Origin: Deltaproteobacteria bacterium
GTDB lineage: Bacteria; Desulfobacterota; Syntrophobacteria; Syntrophobacterales; Syntrophobacteraceae
Length of the DNA stretch: 63,967 bases
Direction of reading: 5' to 3'
Assembly (NCBI GenBank): GCA_021777755.1
Contig: JAJYDE010000020.1
Location: 1-63,967 of the forward strand
Position 1 is the stretch's first letter, and the number at the start of each line of letters is the position of its first letter. Made by a program: the position numbers and the translations under genes. Under the pieces are notes generated by a model, which ran no database searches, was not told where the DNA came from, and saw only the letters and a list, made by a program, of their open reading frames with translations. Below, in pieces: positions 14,458 to 37,014 of the stretch.

Positions 14458-14520
14458 ATCACGATACTCCTTATGGCTTTCGTCGTCAGTCACCGCCCCG
14501 CCAAACCCGCAATCACCACC

Positions 14521-14943
14521 TCACGGGATGGGCTGATCACGCTCGGCTCGCGGTTTTGCGCCCTCATCTCGCACACATTGCATCGGCTTTAACGCCTTGT
14601 TTACTGAACAAAGCAGGCCTTCCTGTCTTAGCGGTTTGGTGAGGTAATCGGCAGCCTGCATCCGAGAACTGACCGTAATCGTTTCAGCACTGGGATAGGC
14701 GGTCATGATGATCACGCGGGTTTTGATTTCTCTGCGGGCCACCTCCTCCAAAATGTCTATTCCCCAACCATCCTCCAGACATATATCCGCGAATATCACA
14801 TCAAATTCGGTCTCATCCATCCTTGCCAGGGCTTCGGGGTAAGTTCCGGCAGTCGCCACGTTATGTCCTTCGGCTTCGAGGAATCTATGAAAGCTGAATC
14901 TGATACTCTCTTCATCGTCTATTACAAGTATGTTTGCCTTCAT
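14521..14943 (-). CDS. Single-domain response regulator (receiver only)
   Basis: A 140-residue CheY-like receiver. The acidic pocket is in VIDDEES, the phospho-acceptor Asp in VIFADICLEDG, the switch residue in MTAYPS and the conserved Lys in TKPL. No output domain follows. Its first 75 residues closely parallel the receiver of the sigma-54 regulator 300 bases upstream (both have VIDDEESIRF and AEGH followed by VATA), so it looks like a duplicated receiver. The ATG at 14943 follows an AGGGAT box. It may act as a phosphate sink or shuttle for the neighbouring kinase. Confidence 0.85.
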   Translation of the reverse strand: MKANILVIDDEESIRFSFHRFLEAEGHNVATAGTYPEALARMDETEFDVIFADICLEDGWGIDILEEVARREIKTRVIIMTAYPSAETITVSSRMQAADYLTKPLRQEGLLCSVNKALKPMQCVRDEGAKPRAERDQPIP

Positions 14944-15206
14944 TCGTTTATCCCTGCGGATACTCCCTGTGCGCGAGGGGTTCGGCGCCATAGGCGATTT
15001 CCCCGGAAACGAAACGTCGACCGCCGCCGCTCACCTGTCACGACTGGCTGACGCGGTTGCCCCAAATTGCTCTTGATGATGGTTGGCGGGATCAAGATCT
15101 GTGCCGAACAGGCCGGCCATACCGCTCATCCCATATTGTGCCGGTATAACGGAAACTTAAGCATGAACGGAGAACACGCGGAAAGTGCACGCGGGCAAAA
15201 AAAGGT

Positions 15207-15234
15207 GTTGCATGCAACTGAAGCGTTGCATGAT
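15207..15234. promoter_or_regulatory. Palindromic operator candidate (GTTGCATGCAAC) upstream of the receiver gene
   Basis: A perfect 12-base palindrome GTTGCATGCAAC lies at 15207-15218. A half site GTTGCATG follows at 15225-15232, 18 bases later, in helical phase with it within two turns. The same core recurs at 18775-18786 and, with one mismatch, at 26973-26984. The site is 264 bases upstream of the receiver start, a distance typical of enhancer sites. Confidence 0.5.
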
Positions 15235-15255
15235 TTATGTGTCACAGGCAACAGT

Positions 15256-16965
15256 TCAACGCAGGGAATTATCTGTGGAGAGGTTGTATCTTTTCATTTT
15301 CCGATAGAGGGTTACGCGGTCTATCCCAAGCAGGCGGGCAGCTTTTACTTTGTTCCAGCCGGTCTTATCCAGGGCTTGAAGAATCGCCCGTGAATCGACT
15401 GCCTGTGAATCATCGGCAGAGCGGTGCTCGATTCGCGAAGCGCCCATGAACTCGGGCGGCAGATGGTCGAAGGTGACGATGTTGCCGCTGCAAAGGACGA
15501 AGGCGTGCTCCATGATATGTTCCAACTCTCTCACATTGCCTGGCCACTGATACTCCAGAAACGCTTTCATGACATCAGAGGATATCGCCTCGATGGTTTT
15601 CTTGAATTTGGCGTTGAACCCATTGCGAAAATGGTCAACCAGAAGAGGGATGTCTTCTCGCCTGTCCCTTAAGGGTGGCAGCTTTATCTCCACCACTTTC
15701 AACCGATAGTAGAGATCCTCTCTCAATTCGCCAAGGGCGACTTTTTCCAGGAGATTCTTGTTCGTTGCGGCGATCAGCCGAACATCGACTTTGACCGGAG
15801 CAGAGTTTCCCACTCGCTCAAATTGTTTTTCTTCAAGAACGCGCAAGAGTTTGAGTTGTATCATGGGCGAGATATCCCCCACCTCGTCCAGGAAGATAGT
15901 GCCGCCATTGGCTATGAGAAAGCGCCCCGCATTATCCCTGACAGCACCTGTAAACGCTCCCCTGACATGGCCGAAGAGCTCGCTTTCAAGCAGATTTTCA
16001 GGCAAGGCCGAGCAGTTCACCTTTACCAGGGTTTTGTGGCTGCGCTCTCCGGCGCGGTGCAGTGCCGCGGCTACCAGTTCTTTACCCGTCCCGCTTTCGC
16101 CCGTGATAAGAACGGTAGTCTGGACGGCGGCCAAAGCCCTTATAAGAGAATAGACCTTTTGCATCGGCCCGCTTCTGCCCACGATGCTATGGAACTGCCG
16201 GTGCTCTGCGAGTTCGCTTTCAAGGTCGCTCACATGCGTATCATCCCTCAATACCATAACAACGCCCGAGAGGACGCCTTCAAGACCCATCAGGGGATAT
16301 GTTCGCACGGAAAGGACCCTCTTGGCACGATTGCGGGCAACACACTCGATGCGGTCCGCCCCGACAGGTTCTCCCGTCCCGATCGCATCCGCAAGAATCT
16401 CCGCCAGCCTTCCGCCGCACACCCCGGGCAGCGAGTCGAACGGCTTTCCGATGTCATCGCGGGAATACCCACACAGGGTCATGGCCGCCTCATTGAATTC
16501 GATCACAACCGATTCCCTGTCCACAGTGATGATGGCATCCCTTACACTCCTGAAGATAGCCTCCAGGTTGGTACGGTATTTTTCCTTTTCCTCACTTACG
16601 ACCTTATACTTCAAAGCGGTTCGGGCGGCATGCAGTAATGACTGCTGGTTGATGGGCTTGGGGATGTAGTCGAAGGCCCCCAGTCGGACAGCCTCGGCGG
16701 CAGTCTCGATACCGGGATCTCCGGTGATCATGATCACCGGAGAGTTGAGTCCTCTCACCTTGATCTCGCGCAAAATATCGATTCCCGTCCCATCCGCCAG
16801 GATGATGTCCGCGAATACCACATCAAAGCTCGTCCGGTTTATTTGGGCCAAAGCTTCGCCGCAGCTCTCAGCAGTCGCCACGATATGCCCCTCGGCACTG
16901 AGAAACCTTTCGAAGGTAAACCTGATCGATTCCTCATCATCAATTACAAGAATTCTCGCACCCAT
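15256..16965 (-). CDS. Sigma-54-dependent response regulator (receiver-PAS-AAA-Fis HTH)
   Basis: A 569-residue NtrC-family activator. The receiver covers about 1-118 (VIDDEES, DIILADG, Lys in PKP). A PAS domain covers about 130-245. The AAA+ domain covers about 265-490, with Walker A GESGTGKE, the sigma-54 contact loop GAFTGA and Walker B GGTIFLDEVGD. A Fis-type HTH is at the C-terminus (NKVKAARLLGIDRVTLYRKM). The ATG at 16965 has AAAGGGGGC upstream and lies inside the 3' end of the kinase gene, overlapping it by 26 bases, so the pair is translationally coupled. The PAS between receiver and AAA is less common and may add a ligand or redox input. It is the best candidate to bind the nearby palindromes (inference). 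Confidence 0.92.
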   Translation of the reverse strand: MGARILVIDDEESIRFTFERFLSAEGHIVATAESCGEALAQINRTSFDVVFADIILADGTGIDILREIKVRGLNSPVIMITGDPGIETAAEAVRLGAFDYIPKPINQQSLLHAARTALKYKVVSEEKEKYRTNLEAIFRSVRDAIITVDRESVVIEFNEAAMTLCGYSRDDIGKPFDSLPGVCGGRLAEILADAIGTGEPVGADRIECVARNRAKRVLSVRTYPLMGLEGVLSGVVMVLRDDTHVSDLESELAEHRQFHSIVGRSGPMQKVYSLIRALAAVQTTVLITGESGTGKELVAAALHRAGERSHKTLVKVNCSALPENLLESELFGHVRGAFTGAVRDNAGRFLIANGGTIFLDEVGDISPMIQLKLLRVLEEKQFERVGNSAPVKVDVRLIAATNKNLLEKVALGELREDLYYRLKVVEIKLPPLRDRREDIPLLVDHFRNGFNAKFKKTIEAISSDVMKAFLEYQWPGNVRELEHIMEHAFVLCSGNIVTFDHLPPEFMGASRIEHRSADDSQAVDSRAILQALDKTGWNKVKAARLLGIDRVTLYRKMKRYNLSTDNSLR

Positions 16966-18694
16966 TGCGCCCCCTTTGGCCGCTTTGATTGGCCGGCAGA
17001 TCAATTACGACCCTGGTAAATTCCCCCTTGACACTCTCAAAGTTCAGGGTTCCGCCATGATCTTCGATGATTCTTTTTGTGATATTCAACCCGAGGCCGG
17101 TGCCTTTGCCGAAGGGCTTTGTCGAAAAGAAGGGCTTTGTAAGCATGGAGAGCTCATGGGCCGAAATTCCAACCCCCTGATCGTAGAAGACGATTCGCAC
17201 ATATGGGCGGCCGCTCCTGGTTGCCCGCTCGCAGCTTATCACAAAGCGCTTATCCTTATGCCTCCCGGGATATTTCTCGTTCAAGGCGTAGCGCGAGTTG
17301 TTTATGATATTTATAAAACACTGCTGGAGCTGCTGAAAATTGGCATGAACTTCCGGAAGGTCGCCGGGAAGCTCCATTCTCAGGTCGATGCCCTCTTTGC
17401 GGATTTGCGCCTGGGTCAGGACAATGGATTCTTCCAGAACCACGGGGACCGGCGTGGGCTTTTTTTCTTCCCGCCCATCCCGCGCGTAGGTGAGCAAAGT
17501 CTTTACGATTCGGCCGATACGCCCGCCTTCCTTGACAACACGCTCTCCGATGTCCTTGGCCATGCTCCCGGGGCCGCACTCATTTATCAGTATTTGACCA
17601 TAGTTTATGATGCCGGTGATGGGGTTGTTGATTTCATGGGCAACTCCGGCGGCCAACTCCCCCAGTGAGGCCAAATGGGCCGTGTGCATCGCTTCCGCCT
17701 GCATCTCCATTTTTTCGGTAATATCGCTCACCAGGAGGAGCACGCTGTTGACCGTGTCGGCCTCCCTTACGGGAAATGCCCTTACGTCGAGTACCGCCCC
17801 GTCATGGGTTAGGACCGCAACTTCCTTTTCAGCCGTTTTGAAACATCTTGATATCGGGCCACCCTCGTGTAAAACAGAACGATCCTTTAATAATTTGGAG
17901 CAGTAATGCCCTGCCGCATCCGATGCCGAATCGTTCAGCTCCAGGGTGTTTTCGCGGTTTGTCCACAAGACTTCCAGCCCGGGAGAAAGCAGGATCAAAG
18001 TGTCGCTGATGGCATTGAGAAGAGTGTGGAACTCCTGCGAGAGTTTTCTAAACTTCGCTTCATTCTCACTGAGTTCGGCCGTGCGTTCCTCCACCCTTCT
18101 TTCCAACTCGTTCTGAGCCCTGGCGAGTTCCTCTTCGGCCTCCTTTCGGATGGATATATCCGTTACGGAAGTCCTGCAAGACTCGGTGCCATCGGCATCC
18201 ACCACTCGGATACTATCCAATTGGACATAACGTTGCGGGCCGTCCTGTCTTTGCAATCTCAGTTCGCAGCTCAGCCGTTCGTCGGTTCTAAGAACCTGGT
18301 CGAAGTGCGACCGCATCCTGGCTCTATCAGGGGCCGTTGCGTAGAGCCAAAAAGGAGTCTTGATCAGGCGCCCTCTTTCAATACCGAGCTGTCCGGCGAA
18401 GGTGAGGTTGGCTTCCACGATGACACCCCCACTATCCGAAGTAACGTAGCCGACCGGCGCAAAGTCATATAAGTTGGAATATTTTGCAAGCGATTCGGCG
18501 AGTTGCTCCTGGGTCTCGCGCAACTGTTCATTTTGCATCTCCAACTCGATCCGGTGAACTTGCAACTCGTGAGCCAGTTCCCGCTCCTGTTCGGGTAGCG
18601 GGGGGGCGATGGGGGTTGCGTCTTCCCTGCCGCGCCGCTCTGCGAGCCGGCGCAACCTGGCGGTTTTATCCTCTACGGATTTGCGTTCAGTCAT
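16940..18694 (-). CDS. PAS-PAS sensor histidine kinase, cytoplasmic
   Basis: A 584-residue kinase without membrane segments. An N-terminal helical segment carries HELQVHRIELEMQNEQLR, then a PAS domain (LYDFAPVGY), a coiled coil, a second PAS, the H-box GVAHEINNP (phospho-His), the N-box IINNSRYAL and G boxes DQGVGIS and GKGTGLGL. It is partner to the overlapping sigma-54 regulator. The start ATG follows GAGGG. The same N-terminal module occurs in the kinase at 21.7-23.0 kb, pointing to duplication. Sensing is probably of an internal signal. Confidence 0.92.
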   Translation of the reverse strand: MTERKSVEDKTARLRRLAERRGREDATPIAPPLPEQERELAHELQVHRIELEMQNEQLRETQEQLAESLAKYSNLYDFAPVGYVTSDSGGVIVEANLTFAGQLGIERGRLIKTPFWLYATAPDRARMRSHFDQVLRTDERLSCELRLQRQDGPQRYVQLDSIRVVDADGTESCRTSVTDISIRKEAEEELARAQNELERRVEERTAELSENEAKFRKLSQEFHTLLNAISDTLILLSPGLEVLWTNRENTLELNDSASDAAGHYCSKLLKDRSVLHEGGPISRCFKTAEKEVAVLTHDGAVLDVRAFPVREADTVNSVLLLVSDITEKMEMQAEAMHTAHLASLGELAAGVAHEINNPITGIINYGQILINECGPGSMAKDIGERVVKEGGRIGRIVKTLLTYARDGREEKKPTPVPVVLEESIVLTQAQIRKEGIDLRMELPGDLPEVHANFQQLQQCFINIINNSRYALNEKYPGRHKDKRFVISCERATRSGRPYVRIVFYDQGVGISAHELSMLTKPFFSTKPFGKGTGLGLNITKRIIEDHGGTLNFESVKGEFTRVVIDLPANQSGQRGRNGCENSCN

Positions 18695-18762
18695 ACTTGA
18701 ACCCTCGGTTCAACCCTGTCGGAGTTGCTTTATCGAAGTGTAACATACGCCGTCAAACGCAA

Positions 18763-18786
18763 CGCAACAATTGTGTTGCGTGCAAC
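18763..18786. promoter_or_regulatory. Overlapping palindromes between kinase operon and ftsH
   Basis: CGCAACA-ATTG-TGTTGCG (18763-18780) is a perfect 7-base inverted repeat with a 4-base spacer. It overlaps a second palindrome, GTTGCGTGCAAC (18775-18786). Both architectures reappear together at 26973-27014. The site lies 69 bases upstream of the kinase start and 360 bases upstream of ftsH on the other strand, so it could control either or both. Confidence 0.55.
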
Positions 18787-18973
18787 ATTTTTCCCCGGGA
18801 CGTCACACTCCCGGAGGGCGCCCCCCTTGCCCCAAGCAGCCGGAATCATGTGCTAAAAGCAACATCCGATCGATCTCTCCGGGCCGGGCACAGACCTTGC
18901 TCAAAATAGCCATGCGGGAGTCGAATTTAACCGGCCTGGCAGATGCTTTTCCAACAGAAAGAAAGGAACAAAG

Positions 18974-19087
18974 GTGGAAGAAGTGCAAAGCTTTAAAGGT
19001 GCGGTACCGGGCGCGCATGTAAACATCGGCCTGAAGATCGACGAACTGGAAAGTAGTCTCGACTCGCTTGCCGAAATAAACCCTTGA
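18974..19087 (+). CDS. Possible 37-residue small protein upstream of ftsH
   Basis: A GTG-initiated frame with a GAAAGGAAC ribosome-binding-like sequence encodes a 37-residue acidic peptide (begins VEEVQSFKGAVPG, contains LKIDELESSLDSL). It ends 58 bases before ftsH in the same direction. Composition is protein-like, with an amphipathic helix. I do not recognise a family. It may be a leader peptide, a small regulator of FtsH or a remnant. Confidence 0.3.
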   Translation: MEEVQSFKGAVPGAHVNIGLKIDELESSLDSLAEINP

Positions 19088-19145
19088 CATGGCATTCCAT
19101 GCGCGGCGGAGTTGTCCATGAAACATCGTTGCTGAGGGCCCTCTG

Positions 19146-21080
19146 ATGGCGAAAAGAAGCAAAAAAGATGAAGATCCCGGTACGATCAACAAGATAATCG
19201 ACCGTATAAAGGGTCCCGGAAGGGGGGGGCCGAAGCAGGGCGACCCGGCTAAAAAACAGATCCAACTTTCAATGTGGTATTTTATCGTCGCCATGATACT
19301 CATTTTCTGGCTCCAGGGCCACATGGGGGGCCGGCAGGCCGAAACGGTTGCCTACTCGAAATTCAAGCTGTGGGTTCAGGACGGAAAGGTGGAAAGTCTT
19401 CTCATCGGCCCGGAACAGATCACAGGCACGCTAAAAGGACAAAAGGGCAAACCGGCAAAAACATTCGTTACCGTTCGGGTGGAAGACCCCAAACTCGTCG
19501 GTGAGCTCGAGCAAAAAGGGATCAAGTTCAGCGGCCATGTGGAGAGCAAGTGGCTCGGGGCGCTGGTGTCCTGGCTGCTGCCTCTCGGAGTTCTCGTTTT
19601 CATCTGGTTTTTTCTGATGAAACGAATGAGCGGAGGCGCGCAGGGTGTACTCTCCCTGGGCAAAGCGCAGGTGAAGGTCTATGGCGAAAAGGACCTGAAG
19701 GTAACCTTCGAGGACGTGGCCGGAATCGATGAGGCCAAGAGCGAACTGGAAGAAGTCGTCGAGTTTCTGAAAAACCCGAAGAAGTCTCAGCGCCTCGGAG
19801 GACACATTCCCAAGGGGGTTCTGCTCGTGGGCTCTCCCGGGACGGGCAAGACGCTGCTTGCACGGGCCGTTGCGGGCGAAGCCGGGGTGATGTTTTTCAG
19901 TATGAGCGGGTCCGAATTTGTCGAAATGATCGTGGGGGTCGGAGCGGCCCGTATCAGGGACCTTTTCAAACAGGCCCGGGAGCATGCTCCGTGCATTATT
20001 TTCCTGGACGAAATGGATGCTTTGGGCAAGGCCCGAGGCATGAATCCCATGGGCGGGCATGACGAGCGGGAGCAGACGTTGAACCAGCTTCTTGTCGAGA
20101 TGGACGGTTTTGATCCGAGCGCGGGCGTGATCATCCTTGCCGCTACGAACCGCCCCGACATACTGGACGCCGCCTTGTTGCGCCCGGGCCGGTTCGACCG
20201 CCATGTAGCCATCGATAAGCCCGACATCCGAGGGCGGGAGGCCATTCTCAAAGTCCACGCAAAAGATGTTGAACTGGGTGAGGATGTTGATCTGAAGAAA
20301 ATAGCGACCATGACCCCCGGCTTTGTGGGCGCCGATCTGGCGAATCTGATCAATGAAGCCGCCCTTATTGCCGCCCGGGGGGATGCGGATGAAGTAACCA
20401 TGGCCAATTTTCAGGAGGCGGCCGACCGAATCCTGGGCGGACTGGAGAAGAAGAACCGCGTCATGAGTCAGAAAGAAAAGGAAATCGTGGCCTACCACGA
20501 ATCGGGTCATGCGCTTGTGGCGATGCTTCTGCCGGGGACCGATCCGGTAAGTAAAATCTCCATCATCCCCAGGGGCATTGCGGCGCTCGGCTACACCCAG
20601 CAACTTCCCACCGAGGACCGTTATCTCATGACTCGCAACGAACTCCTGGATCGTTTGCAGGTGCTCCTTGGCGGGCGGGTCGCCGAGGAGGTGATCTTCG
20701 AAGATATCTCCACGGGGGCTCAGAACGACCTCCAGCGCGCAAACGATATCGCTCGCACGATGGTGATGGAGTACGGGATGAGTGAGCACCTCGGGCTTTC
20801 GACCTACACCCGCACACCGCAGGCAAGATACAGGGATCTTGGACTGGGTTCAAGCGAAAGAGAATACAGCGAGCGCACGGCCCGGGATATCGATGACGAA
20901 AAAAGCAGGCTTATGGAGGGGGCCCATCAGAAGGTCCTTCTCTTGCTGAAAAACCATAGGGATTTCCTCGAAAAGCTCGCCGGGATCCTGCTCGATAAGG
21001 AAACCATCGGTGGCGACGAGTTGAAGCAATTTGCCCTGGAGCTGAGATCTCAAGCATCCGCGGCTGGTGAAAAGTTATAG
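19146..21080 (+). CDS. ftsH: ATP-dependent zinc metalloprotease FtsH
   Basis: A 644-residue membrane protease. The N-terminal basic segment is followed by TM1 (about 40-60), a ~80-residue periplasmic domain and TM2 (about 140-160). The AAA module has Walker [12 protein letters not shown], Walker [12 protein letters not shown] (Met where Ile is usual) and the second region of homology [17 protein letters not shown]. The zinc site is HESGH, with the downstream acidic ligand in [10 protein letters not shown]. FtsH degrades membrane and regulatory proteins. Its position next to two-component genes suggests a specialised copy rather than the housekeeping one, but a second copy is not visible here. 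Confidence 0.95.
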
Positions 21081-21156
21081 TCGAGGCCCGTTTAACATAA
21101 CTTTCGGCTACTTTCCCCGGTGGTCCGTAAAGCCCACGCGATGCGTAAAGATTTTG

Positions 21157-21180
21157 GGCAACCCCGGAAAGGTGGTTGCC
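21157..21180. terminator. Hairpin between convergent genes
   Basis: GGCAACC and GGTTGCC form a perfect 7-base stem with a 10-base loop between the ends of ftsH and the minus-strand receiver gene. There is no U tract on either strand, so an intrinsic terminator is doubtful; it could be a processing or stabilising structure. Confidence 0.3.
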
Positions 21181-21243
21181 TTCAGGGTCGTGCTTCCCCG
21201 GTCGGAAGGATCTCCGGCCTCATTTTGCATGCCCGTTGGCGGC

Positions 21244-21705
21244 TCAACGCCCGATCACCTGAAAAGCAATGTGCGGATTATCCAGGATTGCTGTGCAGGA
21301 TTTGGAAAGCATGGCGGTCAGGTCCTCGAATACATCAGGTTTTACAAGGAAAGAGGAAGCACCGTATTTCCTTGTAAAATCGATGTCTTTTTGCTCCATC
21401 GATGTTGTGAGAATCAGGACGGGTATGTATCTCAAATGCGGAGCGGATTTGATTTTGGTCAGGGCTTCACGGCCGTCTATTCGAGGCATATTCAGATCGA
21501 GGAGAATCAAGTTGGGCAGGGGGTAAGCTTCGGGGTCTGAAAAATCCCCCTTGTTGAGCAGGTAGTCCATCAATTCCCGCCCGTCGCCTACAAAACGCAA
21601 ATTATAGTGACTGCCCATCTCCCGGAAAGCTGATTCCACGAGAAGGCAATCGTCTTCATCATCATCGGCGATGAGAATGATCAGTGGCGCAGAATGATTC
21701 CCCAC
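21244..21705 (-). CDS. Single-domain response regulator (Rcp1/CheY-like)
   Basis: A 153-residue receiver of the type paired with phytochrome-like kinases: acidic pocket ADDDEDD, phospho-acceptor in LILLDLNMPRIDG, Thr in LTTS and Lys in VKPD. The start is GTG at 21705 with GGGAGG seven bases upstream. It begins 3 bases after the kinase stop, so the two are one operon. No DNA-binding domain is present. Confidence 0.9.
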   Translation of the reverse strand: MGNHSAPLIILIADDDEDDCLLVESAFREMGSHYNLRFVGDGRELMDYLLNKGDFSDPEAYPLPNLILLDLNMPRIDGREALTKIKSAPHLRYIPVLILTTSMEQKDIDFTRKYGASSFLVKPDVFEDLTAMLSKSCTAILDNPHIAFQVIGR

Positions 21706-21708
21706 AAT

Positions 21709-23049
21709 TCAGCCTCCCTCTCCCTGCTTGGGCGGAAACCGGACTATGAAGGTCGTCCCCTCTCCGGGCTTACTCTTGGCGGTGATGCTGCCGTTGTGAC
21801 GTTCAACAATCTTTCTGCATATGGCCAAGCCCATGCCGGTGCCGGCATAAACGGAATTCTTGCCATGAAGTCGCTCAAAAGGTCTGAAAATCTTTTGGAT
21901 GTAGTCTTGGTCGAAACCTATACCGTTATCCTCGATGAAGACCTCGCAGACAGAATCGGTGATGCTTCCGCAAATCTTCACGACGGGTGGCTCCGATTCT
22001 TTACGATACTTCATTGAATTTGCGATGACGTTTTGGAAAAACTGGCGCAGTAAAGCGGCATCGCCATCTATTGCCGGCATCTCACCAATCTCGACACTCC
22101 CTTCAGCCTTTTGGATCATCAGTTCCAGTTCGTTTGCGGCATCTTTGGCAACCTCGGTAAGCAACACGCGCTTGCAGTTTAAAAGTTGTGTGCCGGCCCT
22201 GGAGTATGCGAGCAGGGAACGCAGCAATTCCGTCATGCGATTTGCCGCTTTTATTATACGCGCCATGTAGTCCAACCCCTCGGGATTGAGAGATTGCGCA
22301 TGCTTTACGATTAGCAAGTTCCCGAAAGATTGAATCTTGCGAAGCGGTTCCTGAAGGTCGTGGGAAGCAATAAAGGAAAACTCCTGCAGCTCATGATTCA
22401 ATGCTTCCAACTTTGCCACCGCCCGGCCGAGTTCGACCGTACGCTCATCAACACGGCGCTCCAGTTCGTCGTGGGAGTTTTGCAACACCTGCTCCGCCCG
22501 TTTTCGCAGGGTCGTGTCACTCACATTCATCCTGCACAGCTCGGCGCCCTCTCCCCCCTCAAGGTACATGCTCTCCAGCCTGGCATGGAATTCATCGCCA
22601 TCTTTTGGAGACAATCTTACCTCGGTAATCCGTCGTTCACGCTTATCAAAAATCTGGTTCAGGTGGGAGAAAAATTCCTTCCTGTCCGGCTGGGAAACAA
22701 AAAAATGAAAATATCTATGGAGCAAATTTCCCCTCTCGATACCGAGTTGCCTGGCCGCGGTGAGGTTGAGATCAACGATTTTGCCATCTTTGCCAAGGGT
22801 AAGGTAGCCCACGGGCGCAAAATCGTAGAGGTCCGCATATCGTGAGCGGGAAGTTTCGAGATCGATTTGTACCCGCCGCAATTCCTCGTTTTGCATTTCG
22901 AGTTCGATCTGGTGCACCCGCAGTTCATGAATGAGGTCTCTTGCCTCTTCCAGAGGCATATCATCAAGTCCGCCGGGTCGGGATTCCAGACTTTCCTCGG
23001 CACGTTTTCTTAAATCTTCCGGGCTCTTCGGGCTATCGATCTTTTTCAT
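21709..23049 (-). CDS. PAS sensor histidine kinase (phytochrome-like HisKA)
   Basis: A 446-residue cytoplasmic kinase. The N-terminal helical segment (HELRVHQIELEMQNEELR) and PAS (LYDFAPVGYLTLG) parallel the kinase at 16.9-18.7 kb. The HisKA motif is FIASHDLQEPLRKIQSFG with the phospho-His, followed by an N-box VIANSMKYRK and G boxes DNGIGFD and GTGMGLAI. GGAGGGTGGC precedes the ATG. It forms a pair with the receiver that follows. The CheB-CheR gene lies just upstream on the same strand. Confidence 0.92.
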   Translation of the reverse strand: MKKIDSPKSPEDLRKRAEESLESRPGGLDDMPLEEARDLIHELRVHQIELEMQNEELRRVQIDLETSRSRYADLYDFAPVGYLTLGKDGKIVDLNLTAARQLGIERGNLLHRYFHFFVSQPDRKEFFSHLNQIFDKRERRITEVRLSPKDGDEFHARLESMYLEGGEGAELCRMNVSDTTLRKRAEQVLQNSHDELERRVDERTVELGRAVAKLEALNHELQEFSFIASHDLQEPLRKIQSFGNLLIVKHAQSLNPEGLDYMARIIKAANRMTELLRSLLAYSRAGTQLLNCKRVLLTEVAKDAANELELMIQKAEGSVEIGEMPAIDGDAALLRQFFQNVIANSMKYRKESEPPVVKICGSITDSVCEVFIEDNGIGFDQDYIQKIFRPFERLHGKNSVYAGTGMGLAICRKIVERHNGSITAKSKPGEGTTFIVRFPPKQGEGG

Positions 23050-28118: not shown

Positions 28119-28184
28119 ATGAGTACTGTGGAAAATCAGTACAAATCAATCAATGAAGAAGGGCTAAAATGGATATTTTTGTAG
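28119..28184 (+). CDS. Possible upstream ORF overlapping the RRM gene start
   Basis: A 21-codon frame (begins MSTVENQYKS) starts 50 bases upstream of the RRM gene. It ends at a TAG 16 bases inside that gene, in another frame. The same GAAGAAGGG that serves the RRM start lies within it. It could couple or attenuate translation; the evidence is only positional. Confidence 0.25.
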   Translation: MSTVENQYKSINEEGLKWIFL

Positions 28185-28642
28185 GCAATCTCTCATTTCA
28201 GACGACGGAACAGGAATTGGAGAATGAGTTCAAGGCGTTTGGCGAAGTTAGTTCCGTAAAAATAATTACGGATCATGAAACTTCCAAATCCCGTGGATTT
28301 GCATTCGTGAAAATGGCTGTGCAAGAACAGGCCAACGCCGCGGTCACCGGTTTGAACGGAAAGGAAATGAACGGTTTTATCCTCAAGGTCAACGAAGCCA
28401 AACCCAGGGGATCAGGTTCCGGTCAGACACAGCGCGGAGCAAGCGACTACCCGGCCAGCCCCCGAAGAGAACCAAATTCGTGGTCGGGAAACCGGTCGGG
28501 ATCACCTCGTTTGAATGAAAAAAGCAACGATACTGATATTTACGATACCAAGGGAAATCAGAATCATGGCGGCCGCGGAAGAAAATCGCGGCGCGGCCAC
28601 AACGATGTTGGCGGCCGCAAGGACGGAGCGAGGTGGCATTAG
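28169..28642 (+). CDS. RRM-type RNA-binding protein
   Basis: A 157-residue protein with one RNA recognition motif (about 1-80): RNP2 IFVGNLSF at residue 3 and RNP1 SRGFAFVKM near 42. The tail is rich in Gly, Arg, Ser and Asn (GGRGRKSRRGHND). The layout resembles bacterial cold-inducible RNA-binding proteins, though the tail is longer than usual. GAAGAAGGG lies upstream of the ATG. It is preceded by an AT-rich leader and followed by a large inverted repeat. Confidence 0.9.
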   Translation: MDIFVGNLSFQTTEQELENEFKAFGEVSSVKIITDHETSKSRGFAFVKMAVQEQANAAVTGLNGKEMNGFILKVNEAKPRGSGSGQTQRGASDYPASPRREPNSWSGNRSGSPRLNEKSNDTDIYDTKGNQNHGGRGRKSRRGHNDVGGRKDGARWH

Positions 28643-30367: not shown

Positions 30368-30766
30368 CTAATCCCTTCCGAGGCTTTCTTCGAAGCGCCG
30401 GACCGCCTCGATGATATCGCCCAGTTTGAAGGGTTTGGCCACAAAATCGAAAGCCCCTTTTCTCAAGGACTCCCTGGCGGTCTCCGAGGTGGCAAATCCG
30501 GTGATGACGATAACGCCCGTTTGGGGCGAAACCTCTTTAACTCTTGCCAGGAAATGCATTCCATCGGTTCCTTCCATTTTGAGATCGGTAATGACAACAT
30601 CGAAGCGCATTTGTTCGATTCTTGCCAGGGCCGAAGAGCTGTCGGTGAAAGTCTCGACCTCGTAGCCGGCTTTTTGAAAGGCGGGTTTGAGCCGTTTACA
30701 GACTATGGGCTCGTCATCCAGGATCAACACTCGGGTCGGCCGGGCGCAATCGGCACACGGGGGCAT
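30368..30766 (-). CDS. Single-domain response regulator
   Basis: A 132-residue receiver: LILDDEP pocket, phospho-acceptor in VVITDLKMEG, Thr in ITGF and Lys in AKPF. The ATG at 30766 is preceded by AAGGAGGTGAG, which lies inside the 3' end of the PEP-utilizer gene. The genes overlap by 53 bases, so they are coupled. No kinase is in this operon. The receiver may sense phosphoryl flow or be served by a distant kinase. Confidence 0.88.
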   Translation of the reverse strand: MPPCADCARPTRVLILDDEPIVCKRLKPAFQKAGYEVETFTDSSSALARIEQMRFDVVITDLKMEGTDGMHFLARVKEVSPQTGVIVITGFATSETARESLRKGAFDFVAKPFKLGDIIEAVRRFEESLGRD

Positions 30767-33344
30767 CCTCGCTCACCTCCTTGAGAATCTGTATCCTTTG
30801 CATGAAATCGGCCAGATGAAAATCGATCATTTCATCGCCGGTCATGTTGACGTCGAGCTGGCGCGTATAGCCTATCAGGCCGCCAAGGACCTTCATCCTG
30901 CCGACCATTCTTTGCCGGGGCAATTTCTTCAGCCTGCCCACAACCAGATCTCCATGAATTTCCACCCGGAAATCGAAGCCCTCCATGACATCGGCGATAA
31001 ACTTCGCCCGGCGCGAGCGCCGTTCGATGTTGGAAACCCCTCCGAGAAATCTGAAATAAATATAGTTATCGTTGAGTTCCTCCCCGATGTAGGCGTCCAG
31101 TATATTGAAATGATAGCCAAGTCTCAAGTGCAGGTTCATATAATCCTCGGAGAGGACGGCGAGGTTGCGGCCAACATCCTCCGGGCGGGCCATCGAGGAG
31201 CTGAAAGTGCGGGTGAAGCTCGACATGAAGCTGCCAAGGTCCACCGCGACAGGAGCGGTCTCCCACATGCGGCTTTCCAGCAGCCCTTCCAGGAGCGCTT
31301 TCATGGGTGTGGAGCGCACCTGCTCGATCCCCGGAAGCCGGACGCCGGGGGGTATGTTCATACCCTTGCCGATGTCTATCACCGTAAGGCCCAGGGGAAT
31401 TGCAAACTCCAGCCGCTTCGATCCGCGATCATGGACGCGCTGATGCTTTTCGCTCAAATCGATGAGGCTCTCAACCGCTTTTTCATGAACGAACCGGGTG
31501 ATATCGTGATAGGTCCGGCAGCGGGCCGCCCGGAAAAACTCACTGCCGGGGTCCACCAGGTTCAGAGGAGTCACCTTTTTTAGCACCCTTTTGAGCATGC
31601 GGTATTCGCTTGTTTCCTCGAAGACCTCCGCATGGGTTATCTCGAAGTCGCTCAATTCCTTGACCGTGCCCGCATAGACCACATTGCGGATGGCGTCCAG
31701 GGTGATCTGGTCTCCGGTTTTGAGCACCCTGGTGGCCACCCCGGTATCGACCACCGTCGGGACGCGGTATTCGCGGGCAAGGGTGGCCATGTGGCCCGTG
31801 GCCGAACCGATATCGGTGAGGATGGCGCACGCCTTGCGCATGACCCGCGAATACTTTGGCGAGGTGTAGCGGGAGACCAGGACGGCCCCGAAGGGAAAAT
31901 TGTTCAGATCATCGTCGTTTAAGGCAACGTGGACTTTGCCCGAGGCCACGCCCCCCTGGACAACGGTGCCCTGGCCGGAGAAAAGCACCTGCGCAGACAG
32001 GGCCGCGTTGTCGATATTGGGCATGTGGCGCTCGGGCTGGTCGGGCCGGACATTTAGCGGCCTCGATTGCAAGATGTGGAGGTTGCCCGCCCGATCGAAG
32101 GCCCACTCGACATCCTGCGGGCGCCTGAAGTATTTTTCGATCATTACCGCCGCCCGGGCGAGCCGCCGGATGGAGTCCTCGCCAAGGCACACCGCGTCCT
32201 GTCGCTCGGGGGGGAGATCGACCAGGGCGGTCCCGCCGGCTTGATCCCCTATTATTTTGGTTGTCTTGCGCCCCGGTTCCACGGAGATAACGCGGTGGGG
32301 GGGTTGCCTGTCGAGAAAAATAGTGTCCGATTCGGCAATGCCGCTAACAACAGCCACGCCAAGGCCCCAAACGGCGCTTATCACCATGGCGTCCTGTTCG
32401 GGGGCGACCGGCGCATAGGTGTACATCGCACCGCTCACCTCGGCTTCCACCATCAACTGGCAGCCCACGGCCATGGCCATCTCGCTTTCCCGGTAGCCTC
32501 TGTGGAGCCTGTAGCGCCAGGCTTCGGGCGTGTAGATACTGGCGACCACCTCCCGCCAGGCCTCGACGATCCCCTTTCCGGGGACATTCAGCACGCTTTC
32601 GTACTGGCCGGCGAAACTGGACTCCGAATCCTCGCCCCAGGCGCTGCTGCGCACGGCAAAAAAAAGCGGCCTTCCCCGGTTTCTGTCGCAGACGATACCC
32701 AGGGCCGCATGAATCGCCAAGACCATGTGCTTTGGCATGGCGCCGGTTAAAATGCGCTTACGCACCTCACCGCCAAGGGCGTGAAGGGCCGAATCGTCGG
32801 ACAAATCCAGCCCGGCAAGCCCTTGTTCCACAAATTCGAACAGCCCGTTGGCCTCCATGAAATCGAAAAAAGCCCTGGTGGTCACCACGAAGCCATCCAT
32901 GGTGGGCAGCTCCAGGGTGTTACGGATTTCCCCGAGGTTTGCGAACTTGTTGCCCGCCTCCTCCCGGCAGTCGCCGCTCAGTTCCTCCAAAAGGAGTACC
33001 GGCTTTGTCAGGGGAACCGCCCTCCTGCCGGCCAGCTCTTCCTGGATTTCGAATTGAATCCGCTCGAAGGTCACGAAAAGGTCTACGATCTCGACCCGCG
33101 TCATGACGCACAGATCGGAGATCAGCTTGAAGACCAGATCGCTTATTTTCTCCGTTATGTCCATGATATACTGTTTGTCGAATATGTACTCTCCCCCCAG
33201 CTTGTCGCCCATGTCGGCCATAAGTTCCAAAATGAGGTTGTTTCGCTCCAGAATGCTCCTGAATTTTTTAAAGAGCACGGTGAAAGGCAAAACCGGTTGA
33301 GAAGAGCTCCTCGGGGAGAAAAATTTTTTTAGCCGGCCAACCAT
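30714..33344 (-). CDS. PEP/pyruvate-binding phosphotransferase-like protein lacking the TIM-barrel domain
   Basis: An 876-residue protein. A ~110-residue helical N-terminus is followed by a PPDK/PEP-synthase ATP-grasp domain (FAVRSSAWGEDSESSFAGQYESV, with AVGCQLMVEAEVSGAMYT). Next comes the mobile phospho-His domain (ILTDIGSATGHMATLAREY, His near residue 517). After that, about 310 residues (e.g. NILDAYIGEELNDNYIYFRF) do not look like the PEP/pyruvate-binding TIM barrel expected in PpsA or PpdK. It may phosphorylate something other than pyruvate. Start ATG at 33344. It sits in an operon with TauE/SafE, a TIGR02186 protein and a receiver. Confidence 0.8.
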   Translation of the reverse strand: MVGRLKKFFSPRSSSQPVLPFTVLFKKFRSILERNNLILELMADMGDKLGGEYIFDKQYIMDITEKISDLVFKLISDLCVMTRVEIVDLFVTFERIQFEIQEELAGRRAVPLTKPVLLLEELSGDCREEAGNKFANLGEIRNTLELPTMDGFVVTTRAFFDFMEANGLFEFVEQGLAGLDLSDDSALHALGGEVRKRILTGAMPKHMVLAIHAALGIVCDRNRGRPLFFAVRSSAWGEDSESSFAGQYESVLNVPGKGIVEAWREVVASIYTPEAWRYRLHRGYRESEMAMAVGCQLMVEAEVSGAMYTYAPVAPEQDAMVISAVWGLGVAVVSGIAESDTIFLDRQPPHRVISVEPGRKTTKIIGDQAGGTALVDLPPERQDAVCLGEDSIRRLARAAVMIEKYFRRPQDVEWAFDRAGNLHILQSRPLNVRPDQPERHMPNIDNAALSAQVLFSGQGTVVQGGVASGKVHVALNDDDLNNFPFGAVLVSRYTSPKYSRVMRKACAILTDIGSATGHMATLAREYRVPTVVDTGVATRVLKTGDQITLDAIRNVVYAGTVKELSDFEITHAEVFEETSEYRMLKRVLKKVTPLNLVDPGSEFFRAARCRTYHDITRFVHEKAVESLIDLSEKHQRVHDRGSKRLEFAIPLGLTVIDIGKGMNIPPGVRLPGIEQVRSTPMKALLEGLLESRMWETAPVAVDLGSFMSSFTRTFSSSMARPEDVGRNLAVLSEDYMNLHLRLGYHFNILDAYIGEELNDNYIYFRFLGGVSNIERRSRRAKFIADVMEGFDFRVEIHGDLVVGRLKKLPRQRMVGRMKVLGGLIGYTRQLDVNMTGDEMIDFHLADFMQRIQILKEVSEDAPVCRLRPADPSVDPG

Positions 33345-33389
33345 ATTAAGTTCCCACACGGAGCGAGGGCGCAAATCGGCGAGCCACCT

Positions 33390-34148
33390 TCAATGGGCGC
33401 CCTTGCTCTGAAAGACCAGCCCGATTCCAAGGCCGGCAATCACGGCGATAAAAGAGGCGATAGCCCCGTAGAGGATCGGATGATCGAAAGCCAGGGCGGC
33501 CATTACCGAGGGGGCGCCCCTCAGTTCGGCCACAAGCTTTTGCCGGCTTCGGGAGATGATCCCGCCGTTTTGCACCGCAACGGCCTCCACCGTGTAGGTG
33601 CCCGGTTTGAGGCGGGAAGGAAGTGGAATGAGGGCACGGAAAGTTTTGAGCCCGTCCGCCGGCCTCCCGTAGGAGATGTTGCCGCTGATTTCGCGGTAGA
33701 GTCCCTCCTTTTTTTTCATTTTAAGGAATTCGGCAAAAACATCCACCTTTTGGTTTCCTTCGCACTTGACCCGGACCGATTGTCTCAAGCCGGCCAATCC
33801 CAAACCTTCGCCCCCCCCGGTCTCCAGCTCATTGAAACCGGCGGCCGAGGAGACGATGCACACCGAGGGGGCTTTTTCGAAAGTGACGGAATCGAGGTTC
33901 ATCCACACCACGCCCCCCACTCTGGCCTTTTGCCTCATGTGCACCGGGGCCGTATCGCCCGTGAACCGGATGACGACCTGGCTGTCGGCGGGGACCGATC
34001 CGGTCGCCGTCACGGTGGTTCCGTTGAAGAATGTTCCGATGCCGATGGCTTGCGGGCTGAGCGTCAAGCCGATTTTATCCCGGGCCGCAGCGGTTGAGGC
34101 GGAGAAAATGGAGAGGACCGCAAGGAGAATGAAACGTTGGATTTTCAT
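33390..34148 (-). CDS. TIGR02186-family exported membrane-anchored protein
   Basis: A 252-residue protein with an N-terminal signal peptide (FILLAVLSIFSASTAAA), a periplasmic beta-rich domain (LTLSPQAIGIGTFFNG at its start, LPSRLKPGTYTVEA later) and one C-terminal membrane helix (ILYGAIASFIAVIAGLGIGL). This matches the conserved hypothetical family TIGR02186, usually encoded next to TauE/SafE exporters. It starts 2 bases after the TauE stop. Function unknown; likely a partner of the transporter. Confidence 0.75.
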   Translation of the reverse strand: MKIQRFILLAVLSIFSASTAAARDKIGLTLSPQAIGIGTFFNGTTVTATGSVPADSQVVIRFTGDTAPVHMRQKARVGGVVWMNLDSVTFEKAPSVCIVSSAAGFNELETGGGEGLGLAGLRQSVRVKCEGNQKVDVFAEFLKMKKKEGLYREISGNISYGRPADGLKTFRALIPLPSRLKPGTYTVEAVAVQNGGIISRSRQKLVAELRGAPSVMAALAFDHPILYGAIASFIAVIAGLGIGLVFQSKGAH

Positions 34149-34150
34149 GT

Positions 34151-35083
34151 TCAGTGCCCCTTTACGTAAGCCAGCAGAATGTCGGGTCTTGCCACAAGTC
34201 CGTAGAGCATCTGGAACCAGACCAGCAGGACGATGCAGGCCAGAAGGATTTTCAACTGATCGCCGCGCAGCTTCCTGCCAAGTTTTGTGCCCACCTGCGC
34301 GCCTACCGAGGACCCGATCAAAAGAATCAGCGCCAGGACAAAATCGACCGTGTGGTTTTGCCAGGCCTGCATGATCGTGACATCGACGCAGGTGAAAAGG
34401 ATCTGGAAAAGACTCGTACCCACCACCACGTGCATGGGCATGCGCAACAGGTAGACCATCACCGGCACCATGATAAATCCGCCCCCCACACCCATTATCG
34501 CGGCAAGGATCCCGACGAAGGCCCCCAGGATGAGCGGCAGCAGCACCGAGAGGCGCAGGCCGGAGCGTTCGAAATCGGTCTGCCAGGGCAGATTTTTCAC
34601 AATGCGCGAGTAGAGGGATTCTTTCTTCGCCTCGGGGGCGGCAGTCTCTTTTTTCGCCTTGCGCAGCGACTGCAAACTCTCGGCGAACATGTAGGCCCCG
34701 ATCACACCGAGCATCACGACATAGCAGATCTGGATCAGTAAATTGGCGTTGCCCATCGCCCGGAGAACCTTGATGATTCCGACTCCCAGTGTGCCTCCGA
34801 CTATGCCTCCGATCAGCAGCAGCAACCCCATCTTAACATCGACGTTTCCAAGGCGAAAATGCGCCAGAGTCCCCGAGGTCGAAGCCCCCACGATCTGATT
34901 GGAATCGGTGGCCGCGGCCACCGTGGGCGGAATGCCGACCATGATCAAAAGGGGCGTCATCAGGAAGCCGCCGCCCACGCCGAAAAGGCCGGAAAGCAGA
35001 CCCACTGCCAGTCCCAACCCCAGGATGAGCAGGATGTCGACCGAGTTTCCAGCAATTGGAAGATACATGTGAAACAGGCTCAT
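34151..35083 (-). CDS. TauE/SafE-family anion (sulfite/sulfonate) exporter
   Basis: A 310-residue membrane protein with about eight helices and the duplicated family signature: GLFGVGGGFLMTPLL near the N-terminus and IMGVGGGFIMVPVMVYL in the second half. The ATG at 35083 has AAAGGAG upstream. It is first in an operon with the TIGR02186 protein, the PEP-utilizer-like enzyme and a receiver. Family members move sulfite, sulfoacetate or related organosulfur anions; the true substrate is unknown. Confidence 0.88.
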   Translation of the reverse strand: MSLFHMYLPIAGNSVDILLILGLGLAVGLLSGLFGVGGGFLMTPLLIMVGIPPTVAAATDSNQIVGASTSGTLAHFRLGNVDVKMGLLLLIGGIVGGTLGVGIIKVLRAMGNANLLIQICYVVMLGVIGAYMFAESLQSLRKAKKETAAPEAKKESLYSRIVKNLPWQTDFERSGLRLSVLLPLILGAFVGILAAIMGVGGGFIMVPVMVYLLRMPMHVVVGTSLFQILFTCVDVTIMQAWQNHTVDFVLALILLIGSSVGAQVGTKLGRKLRGDQLKILLACIVLLVWFQMLYGLVARPDILLAYVKGH

Positions 35084-35427
35084 GACGGTGGTTTCTCCTT
35101 TGCGACGGTTGATTTTTCCGCTTCCTGAAAAACTATGAGGCAATCAGCGTGCCAAGCGGAGGGCAAATTCGTTTTCTCGTCGAAAACAGAAAAATCGACC
35201 ACGCAAAAGGATTCGGCCGGGCGAGTGCGACCGGTCATGAGGGCGCGGAGAGCGGACGGGCCTCACCGACCACGCCGTATAAACACCTCGGCCGTGAGTC
35301 TTGGACATCTTCGTTTACTTGAAACCGCTTAAGACCTATAATGAAACGGTAGTGAATCTATCGCATGACATTGTCACCCCATATTGACATCACGACTTCG
35401 GAAAAATCGACCGCAACGGGGACAGGG

Positions 35428-37014
35428 ATGTATAAGATTCTCATTTGTGACGGACTCGATGAAAGCGGTTTACAAATTCTACGTTCCGCCGAAGGCGTCG
35501 AGGTCGACATGCCCGAGGGGCTGGGAGCGGAGCAAATAAAGGCGGTCCTTCCCGGATACGACGCCTTGATAGTTCGCAGCAGGACCACGGTCACCGCCGA
35601 CATGATCGAGGGGGCCGGACGGCTCAAGGTGATCGGCAGGGCCGGAACGGGTGTGGACAACATCGATGTGGAAGCCTCGGGAGCACGCGGCATCCTGGTC
35701 ATGAATACCCCGGGGGCGAACGCGATGGCCGCCGCCGAACACACCCTGGCGATGATGCTCGCCCTTGCGCGCCACCTTCCGCAGGCTACCGAGTCGATGC
35801 GCCGCGGGCTTTGGGAGAAGAAAAAGTTCCTCGGAACGGAACTCTACCAGCAGACCCTGGGCATTGTGGGGCTTGGAAAGATCGGTTCGATTGTGGCAGA
35901 GCGTGCCCTGGCCCTGAAGATGCGAGTTCTGGCCTGCGATCCGCATATAGGCCCGGAGGCGGCCAAAAAGGCCGGCGTCGAATATGTTTGCCTCGACGAC
36001 CTTCTTGCGGGCTCCGACTTCATCACCCTGCACACCCCGCTAAGCGATGAAACCCGCCACTTGATAAACCGCGATACACTGGCCGGGACCAAGGCCGGGG
36101 TGAGAATCATAAACTGCGCCCGCGGCGGCCTGATAGACGAGGAGGCCCTGGGCGAATTTCTTGCCTCGGGGCGGGTGGCAGGAGCCGCGCTCGATGTATT
36201 CGAAAAGGAACCGCCCGAGGGCAGTCCTCTTCTCGCAATGCCCAATGTCATCTTTACCCCTCATCTCGGGGCTTCGAGCCGGCAGGCGCAGGAAAACGTC
36301 TCTATCGCCATCGCCTCCCAGATTCTGGATTTTCTTCAGCGCGGACTGATACGAAACGCGGTGAACTTCCCTTCGTTAAGCCTCAAAGACTATGAAAGGC
36401 TAAAGCCCTATCTGCTTCTTGCCGAGCGGCTGGGCAGGCTTCAGGGTCAGCTTTGCAGGCCCGTGCTGGAGCTTCGCATCACCTACGGCGGGGTCGATTT
36501 GCTCGACGTCCCGACCGCTCCCCTGACCCAGAGCGTGGTCAAGGGGCTTCTCGATCCGATTCTGGCCGAAAAGGTGAACCTTATAAACGCGCAGGTTCTT
36601 TTAAAACAGCGCCATATCGAGCTTACCGCCTCCTCGACCTCGCACTCGCGGGGGTACACGGGGGAGATTACGGTTACGGCCCTGGGGCCTGGAAAGATGC
36701 AGTTCACGGCCACCGGGGCGGTATTTTTCGGCCGGGAGATCCGCCTGGTCAGCTTGAACGACTACATGCTCGAGGCCGAACTGGAAGGAGTCAACCTGAT
36801 CATCCAGAATCTGGACAAACCGGGGACCATCGGCCATATAGGATCGACCCTCGGGGCTTTCGACGTGAATATCGCCGACATGCACCTGGCGCGGAGCCGG
36901 GCGGAGGAAAGGGCGATAGCCATAATAAGGCTCGATCGCGAAGCTCCGGGAGAAGCGCTGGAGGCCCTGAGGTCTCATGGCAACATTATCTCCGTCCGGC
37001 AGGTAAAGCTTTAG
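35428..37014 (+). CDS. serA: D-3-phosphoglycerate dehydrogenase
   Basis: A 528-residue enzyme for the first step of serine synthesis. NAD-binding GIVGLGKIGS, catalytic region INCARGGLIDE and the His in PHLGASS are present. A C-terminal intervening domain and an ACT domain (LIIQNLDKPGTIGHIG) give the long form with possible serine feedback. The ATG at 35428 is chosen over one 21 codons upstream because the family starts at KILICDGLDESG and CGGGGACAGGG precedes it. The dinG-like gene follows 30 bases later and may be co-transcribed. Confidence 0.95.
   Translation: MYKILICDGLDESGLQILRSAEGVEVDMPEGLGAEQIKAVLPGYDALIVRSRTTVTADMIEGAGRLKVIGRAGTGVDNIDVEASGARGILVMNTPGANAMAAAEHTLAMMLALARHLPQATESMRRGLWEKKKFLGTELYQQTLGIVGLGKIGSIVAERALALKMRVLACDPHIGPEAAKKAGVEYVCLDDLLAGSDFITLHTPLSDETRHLINRDTLAGTKAGVRIINCARGGLIDEEALGEFLASGRVAGAALDVFEKEPPEGSPLLAMPNVIFTPHLGASSRQAQENVSIAIASQILDFLQRGLIRNAVNFPSLSLKDYERLKPYLLLAERLGRLQGQLCRPVLELRITYGGVDLLDVPTAPLTQSVVKGLLDPILAEKVNLINAQVLLKQRHIELTASSTSHSRGYTGEITVTALGPGKMQFTATGAVFFGREIRLVSLNDYMLEAELEGVNLIIQNLDKPGTIGHIGSTLGAFDVNIADMHLARSRAEERAIAIIRLDREAPGEALEALRSHGNIISVRQVKL

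Follow-up and report, generated by a model that had tools for sequence, protein, structure and literature searches.

Among described systems, the Desulfovibrio nitrate cluster (DVU0251-DVU0245 / Dde_0597-0605) is one of the closest to the locus treated here, and its disruption leads to nitrate resistance (Korte et al. 2014, PMC4001038). That paper calls the cluster poorly annotated and lists genes for a TauE protein, a hypothetical protein, a PtxB-like protein, a kinase, a receiver, a phosphoenolpyruvate (PEP)-utilizer and a phosphatase; DVU0245 mutants are still nitrate-sensitive, pooled and single tests of DVU0250 are discordant, and the annotated pseudogene DVU0248 had little effect in preliminary single tests. 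Its authors proposed a leaky thiosulfate transporter, partly on unpublished data, and mention, also from unpublished data, mild sickness on thiosulfate upon disruption of the cluster. For enzymes of the rifampin phosphotransferase (RPH) type, the authors of an RPH structure point to a large unexplored group (PMC4844700). Here we describe a four-gene operon from a Deltaproteobacteria bacterium of the Syntrophobacteraceae, located in a stretch of 63,967 nucleotides (nt) from contig JAJYDE010000020.1 of assembly GCA_021777755.1 (hereafter the window). It encodes, in order, a TauE/SafE-family exporter, a TIGR02186 protein, a dikinase-like enzyme that we name PEPU, and a single-domain receiver. We interpret the operon as a two-component-controlled phosphotransfer (dikinase) module governing sulfur-oxyanion traffic in dissimilatory sulfate/sulfite reducers, a reading to which we assign a probability of roughly 0.55.

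The operon and the domains of PEPU

The four genes are all encoded on the minus strand, as called from open reading frames (ORFs) and with each part confirmed by Pfam. The exporter gene (34151..35083; 310 amino acids (aa) from an ATG, within an ORF reaching 35143) carries the TauE/SafE (TSUP) domain PF01925 above cut-off (E 4.8e-52), its start codon and ribosome site being taken from the sequence. It is followed after 2 nt by the gene of the TIGR02186 / Alph_Pro_TM protein (33390..34148; PF09608 E 3.8e-41), which by eye has a signal peptide, a periplasmic part and a C-terminal membrane helix; this protein scores 81.5 bits, under the NCBI equivalog cut-off of 255.25, and belongs to the wider PF09608 family. 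PEPU (30714..33374) has 886 aa if read from a TTG (33374) or 876 aa from an ATG (33344), leaving a gap of 15 or 45 nt. The receiver (CheY-like; 30368..30766; PF00072 E 2.5e-30) has its phospho-acceptor site residues D17, D18, D61, T89 and K111 in place. Its ATG at 30766 lies inside the PEPU gene, whose stop is at 30714, giving an overlap of 53 nt. The tight packing of the four genes and the start of the receiver gene within the enzyme gene, both reported in a first-pass annotation of this DNA, are thereby borne out.

PEPU is composed of an N-terminal helical domain, an ATP-grasp domain, a swivel domain and a C-terminal domain, in that order. The helical domain (residues 30-125, 33000..33287, minus strand) is delimited from an AlphaFold2 model, the family alignment A1 and PDB alignment ranges, and PEP synthase chains align with the PEPU profile only from position ~118-128 onward. 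The ATP-grasp (PPDK_N) domain (residues 138-455, 32010..32963, minus strand; PF01326 E 1.5e-80) contains K143, R242, E423 and Q436, retained in 123 of 139 distinct PEPU copies, whose catalytic role we assume from work on pyruvate phosphate dikinase (PPDK) and RPH. In the swivel (PEP-utilizers) domain (residues 494-562, 31689..31895, minus strand; PF00391 E 1.3e-18) the predicted phospho-acceptor is His528 (31791-31793, minus strand), a position held by His in 136 of 143 aligned copies. The similarity to PEP synthase spans profile positions 128-577, with 8a8e as the best PDB relative (E 5.8e-108, profile A1), and the RPH family NF041857 matches PEPU in two stretches with 209.7 bits, against a cut-off of 999.

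The C-terminal domain (residues 592-870, 30765..31601, minus strand; about 290 residues) is alpha/beta and falls into no known family. Eight of its residues are nearly invariant (H623, D624, H630, H755, R789, D809, R838 and D841, each in 141-143 of 143 copies). Pfam has zero matches to PEPU after residue 562, and none up to E 0.1 for the C-terminal domain in any of 25 aligned members; NCBIfam gives single-member matches only, at E 0.006 or worse, and PDB sequences give no match (best E 0.46). The AlphaFold2 model, built from 25 sequences, is only fair, with a mean pLDDT (predicted local distance difference test) score of 79.1 for the whole of PEPU and 78.6 for the C-terminal domain. Foldseek searches with the model of this domain reached E 0.037 at best in PDB and 0.0086 among viral models, and VIA-align gave a maximal Z of 6.3 over 64 residues of a ferredoxin-like core, in a score range that the tool calls common. 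Since neither search yields a convincing fold match, we make no claim about its fold. A PEP/pyruvate TIM barrel (PF02896) was considered and ruled out, with no Pfam match and with models of mixed alpha/beta structure without eight beta-alpha units; as judged from profiles and models, the domain is not a TIM barrel. These results agree with the earlier description of an enzyme without the barrel that has kept its ATP-grasp part and swivel His, and structure prediction with a fold search, the check proposed there, revealed no barrel and no solved fold above noise.

Family size and distribution

Searching GTDB genome contigs with PEPU gave 114 relatives, and we retained the 80 best. Twenty-one of these (L006-L026) match PEPU nearly full length or up to a contig end, and the other 59 (L027-L085) match in the ATP-grasp and swivel domains only, the C-terminal domain being present in 0/59. 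Spread was then measured with A2, a profile of the C-terminal domain, across Desulfobacterota and in 20 genomes reached via the named loci. Of the 297 Desulfobacterota genomes, 107 have the domain according to A2, and they represent 66 of 199 genera. In one family it is present in 22/22 genomes, where a single genome can have as many as nine matches when fragments are counted; the genome of the window has a single PEPU copy, the one described here. Among the 20 genomes reached via named loci, it is found in all seven that yielded full-length relatives, one of them labelled Betaproteobacteria (a metagenome-assembled genome of 1.5 Mb), and in 0/13 of the others. PEPU is a large family, not a rarity. 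The C-terminal domain that had been singled out as unusual does lack a known family or fold, but it is common within Desulfobacterota. In one family, six PEPU copies (L227-L232) are longer than usual, reaching about 1065 residues through an additional stretch of about 200 residues at the C-terminus that by eye is LamG/DUF1080-like.

Conservation of the gene neighbourhood

The TIGR02186 gene is present in 12 of the 21 named full-length loci (L006-L017). Ten of these have TauE, TIGR02186, PEPU and receiver in the same order on one strand, while L011 and L014 end at a contig edge; the nine loci L018-L026 show other arrangements. Ten of the 12 also carry, upstream of the four genes, genes for Usp, a histidine kinase and an NtrC-type regulator (Pfam identities established on examples). 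We further scanned 80 survey places, taken non-randomly from the best A2 matches listed, with profiles built from L006-L026; some genomes contribute more than one place and some contigs are short. TIGR02186 occurs in 19 of the 80, always in the four-gene order (19/19), two of the 19 (L090 and L097) being repeats of named loci. In total, 29 of 101 PEPU loci show the four-gene order, all of them among the 31 that have a TIGR02186 gene (two of the 29 being repeats).

Counting genes within 6 kb of the C-terminal domain, 74 of the 80 places have a receiver, 60 a kinase, 54 TauE, 27 an NtrC ATPase, 19 TIGR02186 and 18 Usp; only four have none of receiver, kinase and TauE. The corresponding counts for 20 named loci (L014 being dropped as it lies at a contig end) are receiver 19, kinase 16, TauE 13, NtrC 4, TIGR02186 11 and Usp 9. 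As a control we took 40 neighbourhoods of PF02896 genes, mostly of PtsI size, from 40 PEPU-bearing genomes; here the counts are receiver 6, kinase 5, TauE 2, NtrC 1, TIGR02186 0 and Usp 0 (Fisher p for PEPU places versus control 1e-17 for the receiver and 8e-12 for TauE). The gene arrangement is far above chance. Whether the four genes are neighbours elsewhere, a question on which the original proposal of a joint system depended, can thus be answered in the affirmative, by the conserved order and by counts exceeding those of the matched control.

Two further architectures recur. In one, a kinase, receivers, TauE and a membrane protein of about 240 residues precede PEPU, and in the other, two PEPU copies flank a kinase and a receiver. 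In loci that lack TIGR02186, the ~240-residue membrane-anchored protein occupies the position between TauE and PEPU (L091:6425-7144, L102:6446-7156, L125:9746-10459 and others); it has no convincing Pfam match in the five cases tested. It was considered as a remote relative of TIGR02186 and rejected: hhalign gives a probability of 0.1%, from an alignment of 33 rows in which at least six ORFs are wrongly called or of another kind, and we therefore treat the two proteins as unrelated.

Loci resembling the nitrate cluster were sought through PF12974 near the C-terminal domain, and three were found (L224-L226), their genomes all belonging to a single family. L225 and L226 contain TauE (divergent), PF12974, a kinase, a receiver, PEPU and a dual-specificity phosphatase, and L224 is alike with no phosphatase spotted. 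None of the three has an assigned counterpart of DVU0250, the gene for the hypothetical protein, and a gene for a sigma-54 regulator (PAS-type in L225) is present in addition. Their PEPU genes have the C-terminal domain at E 2e-65 to 3e-69. It is by gene content that these loci resemble the nitrate cluster.

Receivers and degenerate PEPU copies

The phospho-Asp is kept in 86 of 88 receiver rows beside PEPU, that of the window included, and 67 of the 88 receivers sit in open frames no longer than 165 codons, which leaves them no room for an output domain. A receiver directly adjoins PEPU on the same strand in 82 of 142 copies. These observations bear on the possibility that PEPU is a new kind of receiver kinase, passing a phosphoryl group from His528 to Asp61, such that the ATP/AMP state and not a histidine kinase would set the receiver. 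The window operon, with PEPU and a receiver and no adjoining histidine kinase, would suit such a scheme, as would the overlap of the two genes and the near-universal phospho-Asp. Elsewhere, however, 60 of 80 places have a histidine kinase nearby, the scheme leaves the C-terminal domain without a role, and PEPU copies with His replaced by Arg exist; we consider it very unlikely.

In 121 of the 139 distinct PEPU copies, the ATP-grasp, His and C-terminal residues tested are all intact. Thirteen complete copies have lost ATP-grasp residues, and at the swivel position six of them keep His, six have Arg and one has a gap. Two degenerate classes can thus be told apart, one with the swivel His and without ATP-grasp residues, the other with His changed to Arg. 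The remaining exceptions are three copies cut at a contig end and two with one conservative change. Twelve of the 13 degenerate copies share their locus with another PEPU copy, and 10 retain all eight C-terminal residues, from which the C-terminal domain seems, as far as residue conservation can tell, to be under selection of its own. Degenerate copies are found in L011, L012, L013, L016, L112 and L147 (as second copies) and in L021, L023, L026, L132, L136 and L159.

The degenerate copies also bear on the idea that the C-terminal domain is a ligand sensor, for a metal or a sulfur oxyanion, with the ATP-grasp and swivel domains powering a conformational cycle, so that PEPU would be a sensor or scaffold and not the kinase of a separate acceptor. 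That 10 of the 13 copies with a degenerate ATP-grasp (7 of the 13 also without His) preserve the eight residues would fit it, as would the His/Asp-rich character of the invariants. The full catalytic set of the great majority of copies is, on the other hand, hard to explain without catalysis, and this is the least probable of the explanations that we weighed.

Another proposal is that PEPU is an ordinary small-molecule dikinase, forming or consuming a phosphorylated metabolite of sulfur respiration, the receiver and kinase only regulating expression or being passengers. The strong similarity of its ATP-grasp and swivel domains to enzymes of the RPH/PEP synthase type, the polar near-invariant cluster of the C-terminal domain, which fits a small-molecule site, and the large unexplored group noted in PMC4844700 all lend themselves to it, together with the 60 of 142 copies that have no directly adjoining receiver on the same strand. 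It accounts poorly for receivers that are far more frequent near PEPU than near PtsI/PPDK and mostly lack room for an output domain, and for the persistence, beside another copy, of copies without ATP-grasp and without His whose C-terminal residues are mostly kept. We regard it as unlikely.

Link to sulfur respiration

In the same 297 Desulfobacterota genomes, dsrA was called by TIGR02064 above cut-off and is present in 143. PEPU and dsrA occur together in 102 genomes, PEPU alone in 5, dsrA alone in 41 and neither in 149 (Fisher p 1.3e-38, ancestry uncorrected). The five PEPU-bearing genomes among the 154 without above-cut-off dsrA have completeness values of 62, 67, 73, 76 and 80%. Within the sampled Desulfobacterota genomes, PEPU is nearly confined to dsrA-bearing genomes.

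A further connection is with SulP. A search of the genomes of seven relatives for orthologues of the SulP gene in the window's own genome gave a SulP-family match in five. L248 has the order TauE, kinase, receiver, SulP, a ~410-residue protein with a receiver, a short ORF and PEPU, and the SulP-to-PEPU portion of this arrangement is seen in L247 and L251/L018; in L249 and L250, SulP is accompanied by kinases and receivers, with no PEPU within the fetched stretch, and L252 is cut. Between SulP and PEPU, L018:855-2075 encodes a fusion of a cytidylate-kinase-like domain (PF13189) with a receiver, and L247 and L248 have ORFs that are similar to it in size and position. In the genome of the window, contig C85 (L223:4430-8824) has a cluster of a histidine kinase, a SulP sulfate permease with STAS and a receiver. 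This receiver is 59% identical to that of the window over 104 residues and 71% identical to the receiver behind PEPU in L018. The suggestion that the operon belongs to an energy- or sulfur-sensing system gains on its sulfur side, from co-occurrence with dsrA, from SulP in a few clusters and from the nitrate phenotype of a similar cluster.

The upstream region and flanking genes

A sigma-54 (-24/-12) promoter-like site, TGGCACGCTGATTGC, lies at 35140..35154 on the minus strand and ends 57 nt before the ATG of TauE. It is an exact match to the pattern, and we take it to fit the sigma-54 consensus. The window has one further exact match, at 16-30, and six matches with at most one mismatch, compared with a mean of 4.1 in shuffled sequence, which is no excess; the case for sigma-54 therefore rests on position. 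In the 450 nt before the profile match of the first gene, the strict pattern is present at 15 of 31 TIGR02186 loci, window included, versus 0 of 967 other segments from the same loci and strand; without the repeats L090 and L097 the count is 14 of 29. The distance to the first-gene profile match is about 75 nt or less in 14 of the 15, and about 395 nt in L165. For 10 of the 16 loci without a match, the operon comes after an NtrC gene on its own strand, so that the promoter may be situated further upstream; a divergent pair is present in L014 and L095, which are also without a match.

On the TauE side, the next long gene encodes a 2-hydroxyacid dehydrogenase (35365-37014), and on the other side there is an RRM protein at 28169-28642. 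No PtxB-like protein, kinase or phosphatase adjoins the operon, short ORFs at 28.7-30.3 kb being outside the Pfam scan. More histidine kinase, receiver and NtrC-type profile matches are found outside the operon at 14500-22400 on the minus strand, and no kinase profile matches the window past 22.4 kb. Elsewhere in the same genome, the best kinase candidate is 56% identical and lies on another contig, and no dedicated NtrC stands out (best 43% identical). A defence-system reading was tried and rejected: in PADLOC the receiver drew only weak matches, and PEPU, TauE and TIGR02186 drew none.

A proposed mechanism

If the operon is a phosphotransfer module for sulfur-oxyanion traffic, its parts could work together as follows. 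An NtrC-type regulator would switch the operon on, and TauE, with the membrane-anchored TIGR02186 protein as its periplasmic partner, would move a sulfur oxyanion, possibly sulfite, thiosulfate or sulfate. A partner histidine kinase would phosphorylate the receiver, and the absence of an output domain together with the position of its gene suggests that the phosphorylated receiver acts by binding PEPU. By analogy with the chemistry of PEP synthase and RPH, the latter as given in PMC4844700, PEPU would transfer a phosphoryl group from ATP to His528, converting ATP to AMP and inorganic phosphate. The swivel would then carry the phosphoryl group to an acceptor held by the C-terminal domain. Because sulfate activation yields AMP and pyrophosphate, the phospho-His state of PEPU could report adenylate charge, matching anion transport to the capacity for sulfate activation. 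Extended to the whole family, the proposal would be that in sulfate-reducing Desulfobacterota dedicated ATP-dependent swivel-His enzymes, with histidine kinases and output-less receivers, form a phosphotransfer system that reads adenylate charge and gates both import and export of sulfur oxyanions. It would be a functional counterpart of the phosphotransferase system (PTS) that runs on ATP and not on PEP; its acceptor domain would be new, and catalytically dead sister copies would serve it as relay or regulatory subunits. We offer this extension as tentative and rather doubtful.

Several points weigh against the module that we favour. It is built on sequence, neighbourhood and models, and the substrates of TauE-family proteins are, according to PMC5840216, poorly known. 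No histidine kinase or NtrC gene adjoins the window operon, and the nearest kinase of the PEPU-locus type in this genome is on another contig, beside SulP. Fusions of PEPU to a receiver are absent from the 143 aligned copies and the survey ORFs, and the copies without an adjoining receiver, counted above, tell against it as well. The association of PEPU with dsrA partly reflects shared ancestry, and SulP is rare, being found in 1 of 101 PEPU loci of the general survey and 0 of 40 controls. As for the nitrate cluster, PMC4001038 indicates that the phenotype comes mostly from transposon mutants, in which polarity is possible, and is not uniform among the genes, and DVU0246 is printed there as 2235 bp (744 aa), compared with 853-867 aa for the homologues found here.

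Much of the anaerobic sulfur cycle depends on sulfate reducers, to which the activation of sulfate costs ATP. To our knowledge, the control of sulfate uptake in these organisms is poorly known. The family may explain the nitrate resistance of Desulfovibrio nitrate-cluster knockouts, which would give it practical weight for souring control, and the question becomes testable in a model strain.

Comparison with known systems

Swivel dikinases, two-component systems and the phenotype of the Desulfovibrio cluster are already known. In open literature, covered by titles and abstract openings and with subscription journals mostly outside the search, we did not find the C-terminal domain or the module described beyond PMC4001038, nor the breadth of the family, its near-confinement to dsrA-bearing genomes or the recurring link with TauE and the receiver. 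The word "undescribed" in the first-pass annotation therefore holds, within that search, for the domain, the family breadth and the tie to dsrA, and not for the Desulfovibrio version, which was described genetically in 2014 (PMC4001038). That cluster and the window operon have in common TauE, a receiver and a PEP-utilizer with no PEP/pyruvate barrel among the domains listed for it; an adjoining PtxB-like binding protein, phosphatase and histidine kinase are found in the nitrate cluster only, for which no TIGR02186 gene is listed.

Among enzymes, PEP synthase and PPDK share with PEPU an ATP-grasp domain followed by a swivel His domain, but PEPU differs from them in having no TIM barrel, an extra N-terminal helical domain, a C-terminal domain of its own and two-component neighbours. 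RPH is, like PEPU, a dikinase with a non-pyruvate acceptor domain. Its order of ATP-grasp domain, rifampin domain and C-terminal swivel is nevertheless not that of PEPU, whose last domain has no sequence match; the swivel His825 of RPH (PMC4844700) is near the C-terminus of its ~867 residues, whereas the swivel of PEPU is central. PTS Enzyme I, finally, has a phospho-His swivel similar by sequence to that of PEPU, which is set apart from it by the presence of an ATP-grasp domain in place of a PEP barrel.

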